This document shows, in pieces, positions 8,790 through 17,424 of a stretch of 38,619 nucleotides of DNA (positions are counted from its first letter, which is position 1; every line of letters starts with the position of its first letter). A program made the position numbers and the translations under genes. Source of the stretch: Bacillota bacterium (lineage in GTDB: Bacteria; Bacillota; Clostridia; Caldicoprobacterales; DTU083); contig JAKPIB010000052.1 of the NCBI GenBank assembly GCA_029549985.1, positions 1 through 38,619 on the forward strand. Direction: 5' to 3'. The notes beneath the pieces were generated by a model. The model did no database searches and was not told where the DNA came from. It saw nothing but the letters and a program-made list of their open reading frames with translations.

Positions 8790-10124
8790 ATGAAGATCAA
8801 GGTATACCAGACCGCAAGGGATACGGATGATCGGCTCTCCAGGAAGGATGACCTCTGCTTTGCCCCGGATGCTGAAGGGCAGGAGCTTCAGGTCATCAAC
8901 GTGTATGACGATGTCGAATATCAGGAGATAATAGGCTTCGGCGGCGCGTTTACCGAGGCTGCAGCGGATACCTTCTACAAGCTGAGCCCTGACAAGCGAA
9001 AGCAGATCCTGGACGCCTATTTCAACCCTGACAAGGGTATAGGCTATACCTTCTGCCGCACCCATATCAACAGCTGCGATTTCTCTCTGGGCAACTACTG
9101 CTATGTCAAAGACAATGATATCTCTCTTGACTCATTCTCCATTGAACGGGACCGGACCGCCCTGCTGCCGCTGATAAAGGAGGCTATGTCCGTTGAAGGG
9201 GCTGATTTCAAGCTGTTCAGCTCTCCCTGGAGCCCTCCGGCCTGGATGAAAACCAACAATCAGATGAACCATGGCGGCAAGCTGAAGGCCGAATACTATG
9301 ACGCCTGGGCCCGTTATTATGCAAAGTACATCAAGGCATATGCACAAGAAGGCGTAAAAATCTGGGGCATCACTGTGCAAAATGAGCCCAAGGCCGTTCA
9401 GACCTGGGACAGCTGCGTATATACCGCAGAAGAGGAAAAGGATTTTGTGAAGAACTATCTGGGGCCGGTCTTGGAAAAAGAAGGGCTGGGCCATGTAAAG
9501 ATCATGATCTGGGATCATAACAAGGAACGTGTTTATGAGCGGGCCAGAGCAGCCTACGAGGACCCTGAAGCTGCCAGGTACATTTACGGCACTGCCTTCC
9601 ACTGGTACAGCGGAGACCATTTTGACGCCCTGGATGCAGTGTACAGAAGATGGCCTGAAAAGAAACTGATTTTTTCAGAAGGCTGCGTTTCCTTCCACAA
9701 GGAACGAGGCGCCTGGATCTACGGTGAGCAGTACGGCCACGAGATCCTTGGGGACCTGAAGCATCACACCAGTGCCTGGACGGACTGGAACATGATATTG
9801 AATGAGATCGGCGGTCCCAACCATGTGGCCAATTACTGCGATGCTCCGGTCATGGCCGACACTAAGAACGACACCTTCTGCCTTGAGGCTTCCTATTATT
9901 ACATAGGCCACTTCAGCAAGTTTATAAGGCCGGGGAGCAGACGGATAGGCAGCTCCTGCTTTGATGACAGTCTAGAAACGGTTGCTTTCAAGACACCTGA
10001 CGGCAGCAAGGTACTTGTCGTTCTGAACCGTACCGACAGGGAATTTGATTTCAACCTGAGGTACAATGACCTGATTGCCAGGGCAAAAAGTCTGCCTCAC
10101 TCGATAATGACCTTGATTTTCTGA
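8790..10124 (+). CDS. Glycoside hydrolase family 30, intracellular (444 aa)
   Basis: Retaining beta-glycosidase of clan GH-A. The family start is visible (EIIGFGGAFTEAAADTFYKL, about residues 46-65). The acid/base glutamate is E199 in GITVQNEP and the nucleophile is E297 in LIFSEGCV. LFSSPWSPPAWMKTNNQMNHGG near 142-163 is typical of the glucosylceramidase-like GH30 members. A short C-terminal beta domain follows the (beta/alpha)8 barrel. There is no signal peptide, so it should act in the cytoplasm on imported glycosides or oligosaccharides (beta-glucoside, xyloside and fucoside specificities occur in the family, and I cannot choose between them). Start ATG 8790, ribosome binding site GAGGAG. 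It is the third gene of the operon begun at 8030. Confidence 0.93.
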   Translation: MKIKVYQTARDTDDRLSRKDDLCFAPDAEGQELQVINVYDDVEYQEIIGFGGAFTEAAADTFYKLSPDKRKQILDAYFNPDKGIGYTFCRTHINSCDFSLGNYCYVKDNDISLDSFSIERDRTALLPLIKEAMSVEGADFKLFSSPWSPPAWMKTNNQMNHGGKLKAEYYDAWARYYAKYIKAYAQEGVKIWGITVQNEPKAVQTWDSCVYTAEEEKDFVKNYLGPVLEKEGLGHVKIMIWDHNKERVYERARAAYEDPEAARYIYGTAFHWYSGDHFDALDAVYRRWPEKKLIFSEGCVSFHKERGAWIYGEQYGHEILGDLKHHTSAWTDWNMILNEIGGPNHVANYCDAPVMADTKNDTFCLEASYYYIGHFSKFIRPGSRRIGSSCFDDSLETVAFKTPDGSKVLVVLNRTDREFDFNLRYNDLIARAKSLPHSIMTLIF

Positions 10125-10180: not shown

Positions 10181-10202
10181 ATAGAAAACTGACAACTGAA
10201 TA

Positions 10203-10360
10203 TAGCTGGTATAGGTTGCATCATGCATTAATAGGGAAACAGGTTAGAAGCCTGTGCGGTCCCGCCGCCGTAATAGGTTTAGCGGTTTCAATATGCCACT
10301 GGGAGACTGGGAAGGCGAAATCGCATATACGCCTAGAGCCGGAAGACCTGCCTATACTGA
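10203..10360 (+). ncRNA. Cobalamin riboswitch aptamer
   Basis: Matches the conserved adenosylcobalamin aptamer. The core TAGGGAAACAGG is followed by GCCTGTGCGGTCCCGCCGCC and GTAATAGG. The GCCACTGGGAGACTGGGAAGG arm comes next, and the B12 box AGCCGGAAGACCTGCC ends at 10352. The closing P1 stem pairs TATAGG (10210-10215) with CCTATA (10351-10356). It sits in the leader of a DUF4430-like/ECF S-component operon and should lower its expression when cobalamin is plentiful. Confidence 0.95.
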
Positions 10361-10484
10361 AACACTATTAACTTCACGGGTAATTGAAGGGTGTTGCAAT
10401 ATAAGTATAAGCCAGCGGACTTATAATATGCAGCTGTTTTACACAGCTTATGCTTATTATATGTTCGTAAATTTTGCAGCATGC

Positions 10485-10520
10485 CCCCTTCAACCGGACC
10501 GGTTGAAGGGGTTCTTATTT
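10485..10520 (+). terminator. Riboswitch expression-platform terminator
   Basis: A perfect 11-bp stem pairs CCCCTTCAACC (10485-10495) with GGTTGAAGGGG (10501-10511), followed by TTCTTATTT. TTGAAGGG at 10384-10391, just after the aptamer, is exactly complementary to the 5' arm (CCCTTCAA, 10486-10493) and can form the competing antiterminator. This makes a classical ON/OFF switch with the cobalamin aptamer. Confidence 0.9.
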
Positions 10521-10650
10521 GTCCGGAAGTCAGCAAAGGAGGAATGCCGGGAAAGTTAGGCCGGATCCCCGCCGGCATGGAGACTGACATTCGCCAGAGT
10601 GCATATTAGGTCATATCAACTGTTAATACTTGCTTATAGGAGGAGAAAAC
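10521..10650 (+). other. Structured leader downstream of the riboswitch terminator
   Basis: Between the terminator and the first gene lies about 130 nt with nested inverted repeats. GTCAG (10529-10533) pairs with CTGAC (10584-10588), enclosing ATGCCGG (10544-10550) paired with CCGGCAT (10572-10578). The inner side strands are purine-rich (AAAGGAGGA and GGAGA). I do not recognise the fold. GGAGACTG and CCGGAAG echo motifs of the cobalamin aptamer, so it could be a decayed copy. Confidence 0.45.
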
Positions 10651-11052
10651 ATGAAGAAAAAAATACTTGCTGTCATAGCAGTTTTGCTCGTCGCTGCTGC
10701 CATAATCGCAGTGTACAAGTTCTTTATTATCCCCAAAGCTACGGCAGACGAGAAAACAGTTAATATCCATATCGTTATTGAGCACCAGGATATAGACAAG
10801 CAGTTCACATACACTACCAAGTTTGAATACCTGGGTGAACTAATCAAGGAAAAGAAAGATGAGCTTGGTGCGGACTTTGGTGAGTTCACCGGATTGGGAG
10901 CATATGTGAAAGCTATGATGGACTATACCGCAGATGAATCGAAAGAATTCTTCAGTATAAAGATAAATGACGTCGACGCTGAGTACGGTATAGATCAGAT
11001 CCCGCTCAAAGACGGCGAGATATACAGCTTTGTACTAACAACCTGGAACTAG
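10651..11052 (+). CDS. DUF4430-like membrane-anchored protein, probable corrinoid capture component (133 aa)
   Basis: N-terminal signal anchor (about residues 4-26, KKILAVIAVLLVAAAIIAVYKFF) followed by a small beta-rich extracytoplasmic domain. That domain ends in the family-type segment GIDQIPLKDGEIYSFVLTTW, preceded by FEYLGELIKEKKDELGADF and TGLGAYVKAMMDYTADESKEFFSIKIND. The layout (two-strand start, 'L..L', then 'G..I.ng...' and 'idG..Y.F.l') fits DUF4430, a domain related to the C-terminal domain of the transcobalamin family. Start ATG 10651 behind TAGGAGGAG; an in-frame TTG at 10630 overlaps the ribosome binding site. It lies 2 nt before the ECF S-component gene and behind a cobalamin riboswitch. 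I infer that it helps deliver a corrinoid to the S component at the cell surface. Confidence 0.85.
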   Translation: MKKKILAVIAVLLVAAAIIAVYKFFIIPKATADEKTVNIHIVIEHQDIDKQFTYTTKFEYLGELIKEKKDELGADFGEFTGLGAYVKAMMDYTADESKEFFSIKINDVDAEYGIDQIPLKDGEIYSFVLTTWN

Positions 11053-11054
11053 AT

Positions 11055-11558
11055 ATGAAAGTAAAGGATGTCGTTATCGTGGGCCTCATGAGCGCTGCCC
11101 TGACTGCGGGCAAGCTGGCCCTGAGCTTCATGCCGAATGTAGAAATCGTAACGCTGTTCCTTATGCTCTTCGCCGTCACCCTGGGCCTGAAACGGGCCTT
11201 ACTTGCTTCAATCGTCTTCGTTACGACTGAAATACTCCTGTATGGCTTTTCAACATGGGTCCTGGTATACTATGCCTTGTGGCCCTGCCTTGTAGTAGTC
11301 ACTACCTTGCTCAGCAGGATGATCAAGTCGGAATTCGGCTATGCTGCATTGGCCGGTATATTCGGGTTCTCCTTTGGTTTCTTCTCTGCGGTATTCGAAT
11401 CCTTTTTCTATGGTCCTGCCTATGGTATAGCATACTGGTTGAGAGGCATCACCTTCGATGTCGTCCATGGCGCGTCCAACTTCATAATCGTACTAATGCT
11501 TTTCAGCCCCCTGCATAACATGTTGAAAGCCCAGGCAGCCAGGTTTATTCTGAATTAG
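11055..11558 (+). CDS. ECF transporter S component, probable cobalamin/corrinoid uptake (167 aa)
   Basis: Integral membrane protein with about five or six membrane segments, the size and layout of ECF-family substrate-binding (S) subunits. It starts with MKVKDVVIVGLMSAALTAGKLAL, followed by FLMLFAVTLGLKRALLASIVF and FSTWVLVYYALWPCLVVVT; the alanine-rich first helix is where the energising T subunit docks in this family. The start is ATG 11055 (a Met one codon after the upstream stop). The energising EcfA/EcfT subunits are not in the window, as expected for group II ECF systems that share one module. The cobalamin riboswitch and the DUF4430 partner argue for corrinoid uptake, similar in kind to CbrT, but the substrate is not proven. 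An intrinsic terminator follows. Confidence 0.85.
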   Translation: MKVKDVVIVGLMSAALTAGKLALSFMPNVEIVTLFLMLFAVTLGLKRALLASIVFVTTEILLYGFSTWVLVYYALWPCLVVVTTLLSRMIKSEFGYAALAGIFGFSFGFFSAVFESFFYGPAYGIAYWLRGITFDVVHGASNFIIVLMLFSPLHNMLKAQAARFILN

Positions 11559-11591: not shown

Positions 11592-11622
11592 CGGCGCGTT
11601 CTCCGAATGCGCCGATTTTTTT
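11592..11622 (+). terminator. Intrinsic terminator after the ECF operon
   Basis: CGGCGC (11593-11597 region) pairs with GCGCCG (to 11614) around an 11-nt loop, followed by ATTTTTTT. Strong GC stem and T-run. Confidence 0.85.
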
Positions 11623-11793: not shown

Positions 11794-12612
11794 ATGATCA
11801 AGCTTTCCTTTAACAGCGCTAATTTTGTTGCAAGGACCAGTGGCTACAGGATATTCTCTGAAAACTGGGCTGACGGTGACAAGGCCACAAATGAGTACTT
11901 CAGGCCTCTTGACACCTTTGGCGACAGGTTTGATGAGCTGGTCTCTACTATAAAAAATCTCGGCTTTGACTATATGGACCTGTGGACCGCCCACCTCAAC
12001 TGGGCCTGGGCTACAGATGAGCATATAGAAATAGCCAACGAGGTCCTGGATTGGTACGGCATCGAGATTCTAAGCTATGTCGGTGAGTTTGGCTCGACTG
12101 AAGAGGAGTTTACCAAGGCCTGCCGCCTGGTCAAGGCCCTGGGGTTCGATCTGATGGGCGGTGGAAGCTCATTTTTCCTGAACAATAAAAAACGGGCTGT
12201 AGAGATCCTGGAGAAAGAGGGCGTGCGCTTTGCCTTTGAAAACCATCCCAACGAAAAAACTGCGTTGGATGTCGAGGCGATCATAGCAGGTACGCCTCTG
12301 GAGTACGTCGGGGTCACCCTTGACACCGGCTGGTTCATGACCAACGGCTACCCGCCGGACAAGGCAGCCGAGCTGCTTGCAGACAGGGTGATGCACGTAC
12401 ACCTGAAGGATATAAAGGCCCCCGGCCGCCATGACACCTGTGCCTACACCAAGGGCTGCGTACCCCTTTACAGATGTGTAAGGTTATTGGAGGAAAGCGG
12501 CTATACGGGCAGTTACAGCATAGAGCACGAGCCCTTTACCTTTGACCCGTCGAAGGACTGTGCAGAGAGCAAGGCAATACTCGAAAAATGGCTTGAGGAG
12601 TTTTACAGATGA
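11794..12612 (+). CDS. Sugar phosphate isomerase/epimerase family protein (272 aa)
   Basis: Xylose-isomerase-like TIM barrel of the sugar phosphate isomerase/epimerase superfamily. Recognisable segments are FDELVSTIKNLGFDYMDLWTAHLNWA, the metal-site-type VRFAFENHPNEKTALDVEAI and GVTLDTGWFMTNGYPPDKAAELLADRVMHVHLKDI, and near the end GSYSIEHEPFTFDP; the E, D, H and E residues in these are typical divalent-metal ligands. The start is ATG 11794 behind AAAGGAGAT; a longer form from 11728 lacks a ribosome binding site. Its stop overlaps the start of the next gene by 4 nt (ATGA), so the two are translated together. Such pairs degrade sugars or inositol derivatives, and the substrate cannot be read from the sequence. 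Confidence 0.9.
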   Translation: MIKLSFNSANFVARTSGYRIFSENWADGDKATNEYFRPLDTFGDRFDELVSTIKNLGFDYMDLWTAHLNWAWATDEHIEIANEVLDWYGIEILSYVGEFGSTEEEFTKACRLVKALGFDLMGGGSSFFLNNKKRAVEILEKEGVRFAFENHPNEKTALDVEAIIAGTPLEYVGVTLDTGWFMTNGYPPDKAAELLADRVMHVHLKDIKAPGRHDTCAYTKGCVPLYRCVRLLEESGYTGSYSIEHEPFTFDPSKDCAESKAILEKWLEEFYR

Positions 12613-14883: not shown

Positions 14884-15891
14884 ATGCAGGAAGACTATAT
14901 TATTCAGGTAAGGGACTTGCACAAGACATTCCACACCAACAACGGCAGTATCGTTGTCCTGGACAATATCAACATATCTATAAAGCGCGGCGAGATCTTT
15001 GGGATCATAGGGCTGTCGGGCGCTGGTAAAAGCACGCTCGTCAGATGCATGAACCTATTGGAAAAACCAACCTCGGGCAGCGTGATCGTAGACGGCCGTG
15101 ACCTTACCTCCCTTTCCGAGAGCGAGCTCCGCCGGGAACGCCAGTCCATCGGAATGATCTTCCAGGGCTACAACCTTCTTATGCAGCGCACCGCCCTTGA
15201 TAATGTCTGCTTCCCCCTTGAGATCGCCGGGGTCAAAAAAAAGGAAGCCAGGACAAAGGCAAGGCAACTGCTCGAAACCGTAGGCCTGGCTGATAAGGAG
15301 AAGGCCTATCCGGCCCAGCTCTCCGGCGGTCAGAAGCAGCGCGTTGCCATAGCCAGGGCATTGGCCACCAACCCCAAGGTCCTGCTCTGCGATGAGATAA
15401 CAAGTGCCCTGGACCCGACTACCACCCAGTCCATCCTGGCCCTGCTAAAGGATCTCAACCAAAAGCTCGGGGTGACCATAGTAGTCATCACCCATGAAAT
15501 GAAGGTCATCGAGCGGATTTGCAACCGTGTAGCCATAATAGATAGAAGCCACATCGAAGAGATCGGTACCGTGGACGAGGTGTTCCGCAGGCCTAAAAGC
15601 GCAGCTGCCAGGAAGCTTCTCTACGAGCGCAGCGAAAACATCGAAAAGTTCACAGGCAACGGCAAGCTGCTGCGTCTGGTCTTTGACGGCAGCTCTGCCG
15701 ACCGGCCTATTATAGCCGAAATGGTGCTTAAGTGCGGCACCCTGGTCAATATAGCATTTGCCGATACAAAAAATATCCATGGCAAGATATACGGCCAGAT
15801 GCTCCTGCAACTGCCGGAGGACCCTGTAGCGGTAAACAGGATACTATCCTATCTGGATTCTGAACATATATCTTATCAGGAGGAGGCCTGA
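14884..15891 (+). CDS. metN: Methionine ABC transporter ATP-binding protein MetN
   Basis: Cytoplasmic ATPase of the MetNIQ methionine importer. Walker A GLSGAGKST (residues 43-51), Q-loop GMIFQGYNLL, signature LSGGQKQR, Walker B VLLCDEITSALDP and switch-H VITHEMKVI are all intact. The C-terminal extension (about 265-335, GNGKLLRLVFDGSSADRPIIAEM onward) is the NIL domain that senses methionine and inhibits transport in this family. Start ATG 14884 behind AAAGGAGATAAGG. The gene is 2 nt from metI and lies under a Met T-box, which fits the assignment well. Confidence 0.97.
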   Translation: MQEDYIIQVRDLHKTFHTNNGSIVVLDNINISIKRGEIFGIIGLSGAGKSTLVRCMNLLEKPTSGSVIVDGRDLTSLSESELRRERQSIGMIFQGYNLLMQRTALDNVCFPLEIAGVKKKEARTKARQLLETVGLADKEKAYPAQLSGGQKQRVAIARALATNPKVLLCDEITSALDPTTTQSILALLKDLNQKLGVTIVVITHEMKVIERICNRVAIIDRSHIEEIGTVDEVFRRPKSAAARKLLYERSENIEKFTGNGKLLRLVFDGSSADRPIIAEMVLKCGTLVNIAFADTKNIHGKIYGQMLLQLPEDPVAVNRILSYLDSEHISYQEEA

Positions 15892-15893
15892 CC

Positions 15894-16556
15894 ATGACAA
15901 TTGGGGATTTGATGAAACTGACAGCAGAAGGCTTTGGAGAAACCCTGTACATGACATTTGTCTCAACAGCCTCTGCCTACCTGATCGGCATGCCAATAGG
16001 ACTGATACTGACGGTGACGGACAAGGACGGCATCAAGCCAAATCCCCTTGTCAACGGTATCATCGGATTCATAGTGAATGTCCTTCGGTCCGTACCCTTC
16101 ATCATACTGCTGATAGCGGTAATGCCGATCACCAGGGCTATAGTGGGTACGACGATAGGCTCCTCCGCTACTGTCGTACCGCTTGTTATAGCAGCAGCGC
16201 CCTACATTGCCAGGATGGTGGAAAGCTCTGTAAAGGAGGTCGATCGGGGCGTTATAGAAGCGTCCCTATCTATGGGGGCCTCGCCCTTTCAGATAGTGTA
16301 TAAGGTGCTTTTGCCTGAAGCCAGACCTTCACTGCTCCTGGGCGCTGCCATCACCACTACCACGATACTGAGCTATTCTGCCATGGCAGGCGTCGTAGGA
16401 GGCGGCGGGCTGGGCGATATAGCCATAAGGTATGGCTATCACCGAAAACAGACAGATATAATGATTGTCATGGTAGTCGTGCTGGTCGCAATAGTCCAGG
16501 TGCTGCAGGCAGCAGGCAACTGGATCTCCCGTAGAAATGACAAACGCATCAGGTAA
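15894..16556 (+). CDS. metI: Methionine ABC transporter permease MetI
   Basis: Membrane subunit of the MetNIQ importer, 220 aa with five predicted membrane segments. The EAA-type coupling loop that contacts MetN is VDRGVIEASLSMGASPFQIVYKVLLPEA (around residues 118-145, with the conserved EAxxxxGAsPxqI). Start ATG 15894, overlapping nothing, with GGAGG inside the end of metN. Length and order (N-I-Q) are standard for the family. Confidence 0.96.
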   Translation: MTIGDLMKLTAEGFGETLYMTFVSTASAYLIGMPIGLILTVTDKDGIKPNPLVNGIIGFIVNVLRSVPFIILLIAVMPITRAIVGTTIGSSATVVPLVIAAAPYIARMVESSVKEVDRGVIEASLSMGASPFQIVYKVLLPEARPSLLLGAAITTTTILSYSAMAGVVGGGGLGDIAIRYGYHRKQTDIMIVMVVVLVAIVQVLQAAGNWISRRNDKRIR

Positions 16557-16608
16557 TAATCAAATTTAACTTTATAATAAAATTCTATTGTAAAGGGGAA
16601 ATGAGAAA

Positions 16609-17424
16609 ATGAAAAGAATCGCTTTAGTTTTACTGTCACTTGTTCTCTTGGCTGCAGTATTCACAGGCTGCGCAAACACAGGAAAGAAAACCAATGTACT
16701 TAAAGTCGGGGCTAGCGTCACACCCCATGCCGAGGTCCTGGAGGTAGCCAAGGAGATCCTGGCCAAGCAGGGCATTCAGCTCGAAATCGTTGAGTTCACC
16801 GACTATGTACAGCCAAACTTAGCTCTCAACGATGGCGATTTGGACGCCAACTACTTCCAGCACCAGCCCTACCTGGACAAGTTCAACAAGGACCACGGGA
16901 CCAAGCTGGTATCTGTGGCAGCCATTCATTACGAGCCCTTCGGCCTGTTCGCCGGCAAGACAAAGTCCATTGATGACCTGAAGGACGGAGCCGTGATATG
17001 CGTACCCAACGACGGCACCAACGAAGCCCGGGCCCTCATGCTGCTCGAAGCCCAGGGGCTCATCAAGCTGAAAGAAGGCGTAGGATTTTATGCAACGGTA
17101 CTTGATATCGTTGAAAACCCCAAGAACCTGCAGATCAAGGAGCTGGCTGCAGAACAGCTCACCCATTCCCTGCAGGATGTTGATATGGCTGTAATCAACG
17201 GCAACTTTGCCATCCAGGCCGGGCTCAATGCAAGCACAGATGCCCTTGCAGTCGAAGACAAGGATTCCGAAGCTGCCCAGACATACGCAAATGTAGTTTG
17301 CGTCAAGGAAGGCAAAGAGAATGACCCGGCCATCAAAGCACTCATCGAAGCCCTGCAGAGCAAGGAAGTCAAGGAATTCATGGAGACAAAGTACAAGGGC
17401 GCTGTTGTGCCGATATTCGACTGA
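16609..17424 (+). CDS. metQ: Methionine-binding lipoprotein MetQ
   Basis: Surface-exposed substrate-binding protein of the MetNIQ importer. The signal peptide ends in a lipobox, AVFTGC, with the lipidated Cys at residue 21. The mature protein has the NlpA/MetQ family segments KVGASVTPHAEVLEVAKEIL, VEFTDYVQPNLALNDGDLDA and YFQHQPYLDKFNKDHG, then VCVPNDGTNEARALMLLEAQGLI and AVINGNFAIQAGL. Length 271 aa is standard. Start ATG 16609 behind AAAGGGGAAATG. A terminator follows at 17468, so metNIQ is a complete three-gene unit under the T-box. Confidence 0.97.
   Translation: MKRIALVLLSLVLLAAVFTGCANTGKKTNVLKVGASVTPHAEVLEVAKEILAKQGIQLEIVEFTDYVQPNLALNDGDLDANYFQHQPYLDKFNKDHGTKLVSVAAIHYEPFGLFAGKTKSIDDLKDGAVICVPNDGTNEARALMLLEAQGLIKLKEGVGFYATVLDIVENPKNLQIKELAAEQLTHSLQDVDMAVINGNFAIQAGLNASTDALAVEDKDSEAAQTYANVVCVKEGKENDPAIKALIEALQSKEVKEFMETKYKGAVVPIFD

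Follow-up and report, generated by a model that had tools for sequence, protein, structure and literature searches.

In ECF transporters, the S component is itself described as the binding protein, and in the animal B12 carriers tight binding takes both an alpha and a beta domain. Among transporters of this type is ECF-CbrT of Lactobacillus delbrueckii, which has been purified and reconstituted with no DUF4430 protein present and which transports cobalamin and cobinamide, with affinities in the nanomolar range (PMC5997447). The corresponding gene cluster reads nrdJ-cbrS-cbrT-pduO, with cbrS named once (PMC5997447). In a proteome study of Lacticaseibacillus rhamnosus, a DUF4430 protein is encoded near rtpR, the gene of an AdoCbl-dependent reductase, and an "additional lipoprotein component of putative cobalamin ECF transporter" is listed (PMC9963975). 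Among the animal proteins, the human transcobalamin beta domain (TC-beta) binds cyanocobalamin and cobinamide in isolation (PMC5599065), while the haptocorrin beta domain contacts the corrinoid through Arg357, Trp359 and Tyr362 (PMC4350170). The open-access papers found to mention DUF4430 assign the domain no tested bacterial function in B12 uptake.

A locus in a Clostridia genome (assembly GCA_029549985.1, contig JAKPIB010000052.1) brings a CbrT-like S component and a DUF4430-type protein together under a cobalamin riboswitch; the window, meaning the whole stretch of DNA that was analyzed, is 38,619 nucleotides long. The operon begins with the gene of the DUF4430-type protein (133 amino acids; positions 10651 to 11052, forward strand), followed after an intergenic gap of 2 nt by that of the S component (167 amino acids; 11055 to 11558, forward strand). 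A terminator scan places an intrinsic terminator at 11592 to 11621 on the same strand (11592 to 11614 in the narrower delimitation), closing the 3' end of the operon. The pair is highly likely to import a corrinoid. With almost the same assurance, the locus as a whole can be read as a self-contained corrinoid (B12) import operon that is switched off by B12.

The riboswitch and its expression platform

The aptamer occupies positions 10196 to 10369 of the forward strand and matches Rfam RF00174 with 101.5 bits against a cut-off of 31.5 (E 1.9e-24). All model positions from 1 to 189 are covered, in agreement with the initial annotation, which had called the riboswitch complete. Its B12 box, AGACCTGCC, lies at 10344 to 10352, and an Rfam scan of the 2.1 Mb source genome finds this cobalamin riboswitch and no other. 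A P13 hairpin, read from the sequence and recurring in relatives, spans 10361 to 10395 (forward strand), with a lower stem of AACACT/GGTGTT, an upper stem of CTTCA/TGAAG and the loop CGGGTAAT. The CGGG within this loop (L13) could form a kissing interaction with the CCCG of L5 at 10261 to 10264.

The intrinsic terminator of the leader (10485 to 10520, forward strand), detected by the terminator scan and by its folding energy, consists of a perfect stem at 10485 to 10511 followed by the T-rich tail TTCTTATTT. The antiterminator strand (10382 to 10397, forward strand) overlaps the 3' arm of P13, and the two structures are therefore mutually exclusive. This 3' side of P13 reads TTGAAGGGTGTTGC and is complementary to the terminator 5' arm and to the bases that precede it; the core of the match, TTGAAGGG at 10384 to 10391, is the exact complement of 10486 to 10493. 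The extended antiterminator duplex has an energy of -20.9 kcal/mol, a value reached by none of 300 shuffles, and that of the terminator itself is about -20.8 kcal/mol. Both the exact terminator and the complementary antiterminator strand proposed earlier are thus borne out.

Across relatives, the terminator is present in 15 of 16 leaders examined, the window included. P13 folds in 14 of the 15 leaders with a terminator; in L116 the loop motif was missed by the script, and in L107 and L113 the P13 lower stem carries A-T instead of C-G. In some relatives the antiterminator duplex stands out less from shuffles (54 of 300 in L113), and the window is where it has the strongest statistical support.

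By analogy with known cobalamin riboswitches, ligand binding would favor termination. With B12 bound, L13 would kiss L5 and hold P13 in place, trapping the antiterminator strand, so that the terminator can form and end transcription. At low B12, the antiterminator strand would pair with the terminator 5' arm, and both genes would be read.

Between the terminator and the first gene (10520 to 10650), a second riboswitch was considered and rejected, with no Rfam match and a fold no better than that of shuffles. An orphan ribosome-binding site, AAAGGAGG, is located at 10538 to 10545 (forward strand), between the terminator and the real ribosome-binding site, and also occurs in five relatives. An open reading frame after it was likewise rejected: an ATG is found in the window and in two of these relatives (L098 and L099), where the peptides have 21, 16 and 5 codons, respectively, and are not conserved.

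The S component

The S component has no match in Pfam or NCBIfam. A phmmer search with the single sequence finds one relative among solved structures, 6fnp_A (E 2.9e-12), and a profile of 34 homologues of the S component finds the same chain with an E of 2.2e-27, the next match being at 0.33. Structure 6fnp is ECF-CbrT of L. delbrueckii (PMC5997447). Homology to CbrT extends over residues 21 to 153, at about 33% identity. The predicted model (pLDDT 93) has a fold of about six membrane helices, and in VIA-align it matches solved S components, including FolT, RibU, ThiT and others, with Z of 11 to 15, compared with 7 for other folds. Foldseek with this model returns no match under E 0.001. As 6fnp is absent among the Foldseek and VIA-align matches listed, the link to CbrT rests on sequence. 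By this homology the S component is assigned to the CbrT family and predicted to transport corrinoid, in keeping with the ECF S component noted at this position, 2 nt past the stop codon of the preceding gene. The label "group II" given to it also fits, because EcfA and EcfT genes do not adjoin the pair and a common EcfA-EcfA-EcfT module is found elsewhere in the genome.

The DUF4430-type partner

The DUF4430-type protein has an N-terminal membrane helix (residues 3 to 26), a transcobalamin-beta-like domain (residues 33 to 133) and no lipobox; the alpha domain is missing. The window protein reaches 18.5 bits against PF14478, below the curated cut-off of 23.8, but close relatives pass it (26.7, 26.4 and 24.5 bits) and the fold agrees, in keeping with its description as a membrane-anchored DUF4430-like protein. 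Pfam or NCBIfam alone did not suffice to identify either protein of the pair.

In a PDB profile search with the relatives of the DUF4430-type protein, the best match is 3u7z (E 2.8e-30), followed more weakly by the beta domain of human transcobalamin-1 (E 0.0011). The predicted model (pLDDT 88) contains a beta-grasp-like domain, and among solved structures the fold search again ranks 3u7z first, with Z 17.1 and an rmsd of 1.3 over 96 residues. After it, with Z of 14.0 to 15.3 (rmsd 1.8 to 2.3 over 97 to 101 residues), come the transcobalamin, intrinsic factor and haptocorrin beta domains, and the next unrelated fold is at Z 8.3. The relation to the transcobalamin C-terminal domain that the initial annotation had proposed is consistent with these values: the modeled domain has the transcobalamin beta-domain fold, and its binding of corrinoid is a prediction.

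In our own reading of the HMMER alignment, the haptocorrin contact residues fall on the stretch RSWGPY. The aligned bacterial positions hold F, Y or L, then a G that is invariant in the closer set, and two places on an M, Y or F. The window protein has L82, G83 and Y85 in this stretch, with the leucine aligned with Trp359 of haptocorrin. This mapping of contact residues may serve as a lead toward corrinoid binding, not as proof of it.

Some divergent DUF4430 partners carry a lipobox in place of the plain membrane helix, as if tethering at the outer face were what matters for the partner. Where the loci diverge most, the S component gene is preceded by one for a lipoprotein that has no Pfam match and aligns with the DUF4430 profile at a probability of 95 to 96%. 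A relationship of these lipoproteins to DUF4430 is only suggestive, given that the signal comes partly from the N-terminal membrane segment.

Distribution and gene context

Within the family of the source genome, the pair is present and always adjacent in 10 of 13 genomes, and both genes are missing from the remaining three. The riboswitch lies upstream of the pair in eight of nine relatives; the contig of the ninth ends 257 bases before the gene. Of 12 additional loci whose records carry names, 10 have it too, those of Anaeromonas, Clostridium ultunense, Youngiibacter and Proteiniclasticum among them, and within these 12 it accompanies all 10 whose S component has an identity of about 50% or more. 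Two distant relatives of the S component have no Rfam-level riboswitch. A class-wide sample of 291 genomes contains 52 that encode a relative of the S component, and in most of the loci fetched a DUF4430 gene stands directly before it. The pairing of CbrT and DUF4430 is widespread in the Clostridia loci examined.

In two of the three family genomes that lack the pair, a cobalamin riboswitch precedes CobA and then a FecCD (BtuC-type) permease; the third is 71% complete. One genome (G005) carries both systems, the pair and the riboswitch-CobA-FecCD arrangement. Genes of B12 metabolism also recur beside the pair itself. In 10 loci, metH lies on the same strand just upstream, and in four others PduO-type adenosyltransferase genes adjoin the pair, with the order riboswitch-PduO-DUF4430-CbrT in L105, a close relative, and riboswitch-DUF4430-CbrT-PduO in L240. 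At another locus, RACo and a corrinoid protein are found beside the pair. Several loci (L079, L084, L085 and others) have EcfT and a fused EcfAA between the DUF4430 gene and the S component. At L078, L081 and L083, the S component is fused to the EcfA ATPases in one protein of 805 to 900 amino acids with EcfT adjoining, and a DUF4430 gene lies nearby in L078 and L081.

A different context is seen in one family (f132), in which the pair is found at five loci within a sodium-pumping decarboxylase cluster, with a lactate-racemase-like gene and a short-chain dehydrogenase on one flank and sodium-pumping oxaloacetate-decarboxylase genes on the other. These five loci have no cobalamin riboswitch, and the ligand of the pair may have changed in this family. 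Given this cluster and the missing riboswitch, the function of the pair may not be uniform.

The genes on either side of the operon in the window have no apparent relation to it by Pfam: the upstream gene (8790 to 10124) encodes a family 30 glycoside hydrolase and the downstream gene (11794 to 12612) a sugar isomerase-like protein. Farther along the window, positions 14884 to 17424 encode a MetN-MetI-MetQ-like transporter composed of a NIL-domain ATPase, a permease and an NlpA lipoprotein. At the contig edge, positions 1 to 137 of the window (reverse strand) hold the 5' end of a 16S rRNA gene.

Corrinoid metabolism of the source genome

The source genome is a 2.1 Mb draft of about 97% completeness, and absences from it therefore carry a small risk. 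CbiC, PduO and a FecCD (BtuC-type) permease were not found in it, and CobA is present. Among ribosomal genes on contig C9, two ABC ATPases and a CbiQ/EcfT protein form the EcfA-EcfA-EcfT module, and a CbiM-CbiQ system is encoded at another place. A cluster on contig C38 contains a corrinoid protein, RACo, a PocR-AraC regulator and a B12-binding radical SAM protein with DUF4080; the same cluster encodes a 740-amino-acid protein without a Pfam match. As CbiC and the FecCD permease are lacking, yet CobA, EcfAAT, the corrinoid protein and RACo are encoded, the organism very probably needs corrinoid from outside. The pair is the only corrinoid entry route recognized in this genome.

Proposed function and rival explanations

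The assignment of the two genes as a corrinoid uptake pair, made in the initial annotation, draws agreement from several independent lines of evidence: the riboswitch, the CbrT homology, the transcobalamin beta fold and the neighboring metH, PduO, CobA and RACo genes. It is further supported by the riboswitch-CobA-BtuC operon that replaces the pair in relatives and by the lack of a BtuC-type permease in the source genome. In the proposed mechanism, the DUF4430-type protein would grip the corrinoid on the outer face of the membrane, in the manner of the isolated human beta domain, and would either hand it to the S component or cap the outer gate of the S component. The S component would take up the corrinoid in the membrane, dock on EcfAAT and deliver it with ATP, after which the imported corrinoid would go to CobA and the corrinoid methyl-transfer proteins. 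Surface capture by the DUF4430-type protein is plausible from the modeled fold, and direct contact of this domain with the corrinoid is rather likely. The stronger claim is that the DUF4430-type protein genuinely serves an ECF transporter as its corrinoid-capture subunit, as a stand-alone bacterial counterpart of the beta domain in human B12 carriers that is anchored next to the S component and supplies it with corrinoid; the chances of this appear even.

The role of the partner is where the main alternative departs. The S component might import corrinoid alone, and the DUF4430-type protein might make no contact with it, instead stabilizing or gating the S component or aiding its docking on EcfAAT. 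Since CbrT with EcfAAT moves B12 in vitro in a partner-free reconstitution, basic transport does not require the partner, and a stabilizer would make sense for apo CbrT, which is unstable without substrate (PMC5997447). This alternative is nevertheless unlikely, though worth keeping in view, as the partner's nearest fold matches are to domains that bind B12, with other beta-grasp proteins scoring far lower, and TC-beta in isolation binds B12 (PMC5599065).

The remaining alternatives concern the substrate. That the pair imports a related precursor, such as cobinamide or a lower-ligand base or riboside, in place of whole cobamides is improbable. B12 riboswitches do control precursor transport in Firmicutes as well (CblT). 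CbrT accepts cobinamide too (PMC5997447), but the neighboring genes are B12 users and adenosyltransferases instead of lower-ligand genes, and by sequence CbrT is the nearest among solved S components. Import of cobalt or another metal is less probable still: the genome has no corrin ring synthesis to use the cobalt (CbiC is absent), a CbiM-CbiQ system is already encoded elsewhere and the S component is CbrT-like. The points in favor of a metal are that cobalt transporters are often under B12 riboswitches and that 3u7z, a relative of DUF4430, carries the deposited name "putative metal binding protein". Equally remote is a B12-independent back-up function under the riboswitch, in which the pair would import something that spares B12. 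The metE gene is such a riboswitch-controlled back-up in some bacteria, but CbrT homology, the beta-domain fold and the riboswitch-CobA-BtuC replacement in relatives all argue against this reading.

Comparison with known systems

The pair is not a new kind of system, as CbrT has been characterized and the position of cbrS is already annotated in lactobacilli. The initial annotation had called the role of this domain not well documented; this stands for experiments and fails for annotation, which exists both for cbrS (PMC5997447) and for the lipoprotein component (PMC9963975). From the gene order at L240 and the L. rhamnosus proteome (PMC9963975), we infer that the DUF4430 protein of L. rhamnosus, the listed lipoprotein component and cbrS are one gene. 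Many anaerobic Bacillota must import corrinoids, and do so without BtuCDF. If DUF4430 does capture corrinoids, a substrate-capture part would be added to the ECF transporters, a class thought to need none, and B12 auxotrophs in gut and digester communities could be better annotated. Intrinsic factor and transcobalamin would also gain a bacterial relative for comparison, and the animal B12 carriers would be linked to part of a bacterial uptake system.

The S component in the window resembles CbrT of L. delbrueckii (6fnp) in its similar length, its group II organization with a common EcfAAT and its B12-related gene neighbors. It differs in being part of a two-gene operon under a cobalamin riboswitch, and its transport activity is a prediction. 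Like cbrS of the lactobacilli, which directly precedes cbrT, the DUF4430 gene directly precedes the S component, although its product has a membrane helix without a lipobox, unlike the annotated lipoprotein component. The closest solved structure to the DUF4430 model, RUMGNA_00854 of Ruminococcus gnavus (3u7z), was deposited as a putative metal-binding protein. With the beta domains of transcobalamin, intrinsic factor and haptocorrin (5np4, 2bb6, 3kq4 and 4kki), the modeled protein shares the fold (Z 14 to 15), and the bacterial family has bulky or aromatic residues at most of the aligned contact positions. However, the window protein has no alpha domain, is membrane anchored and is 11 to 17% identical to these animal domains. 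Finally, BtuFCD resembles the pair in that it provides high-affinity corrinoid import, is often under a cobalamin riboswitch and replaces the pair in two relatives, whereas its proteins, a soluble binding protein and a FecCD permease among them, are unrelated to those of the pair.
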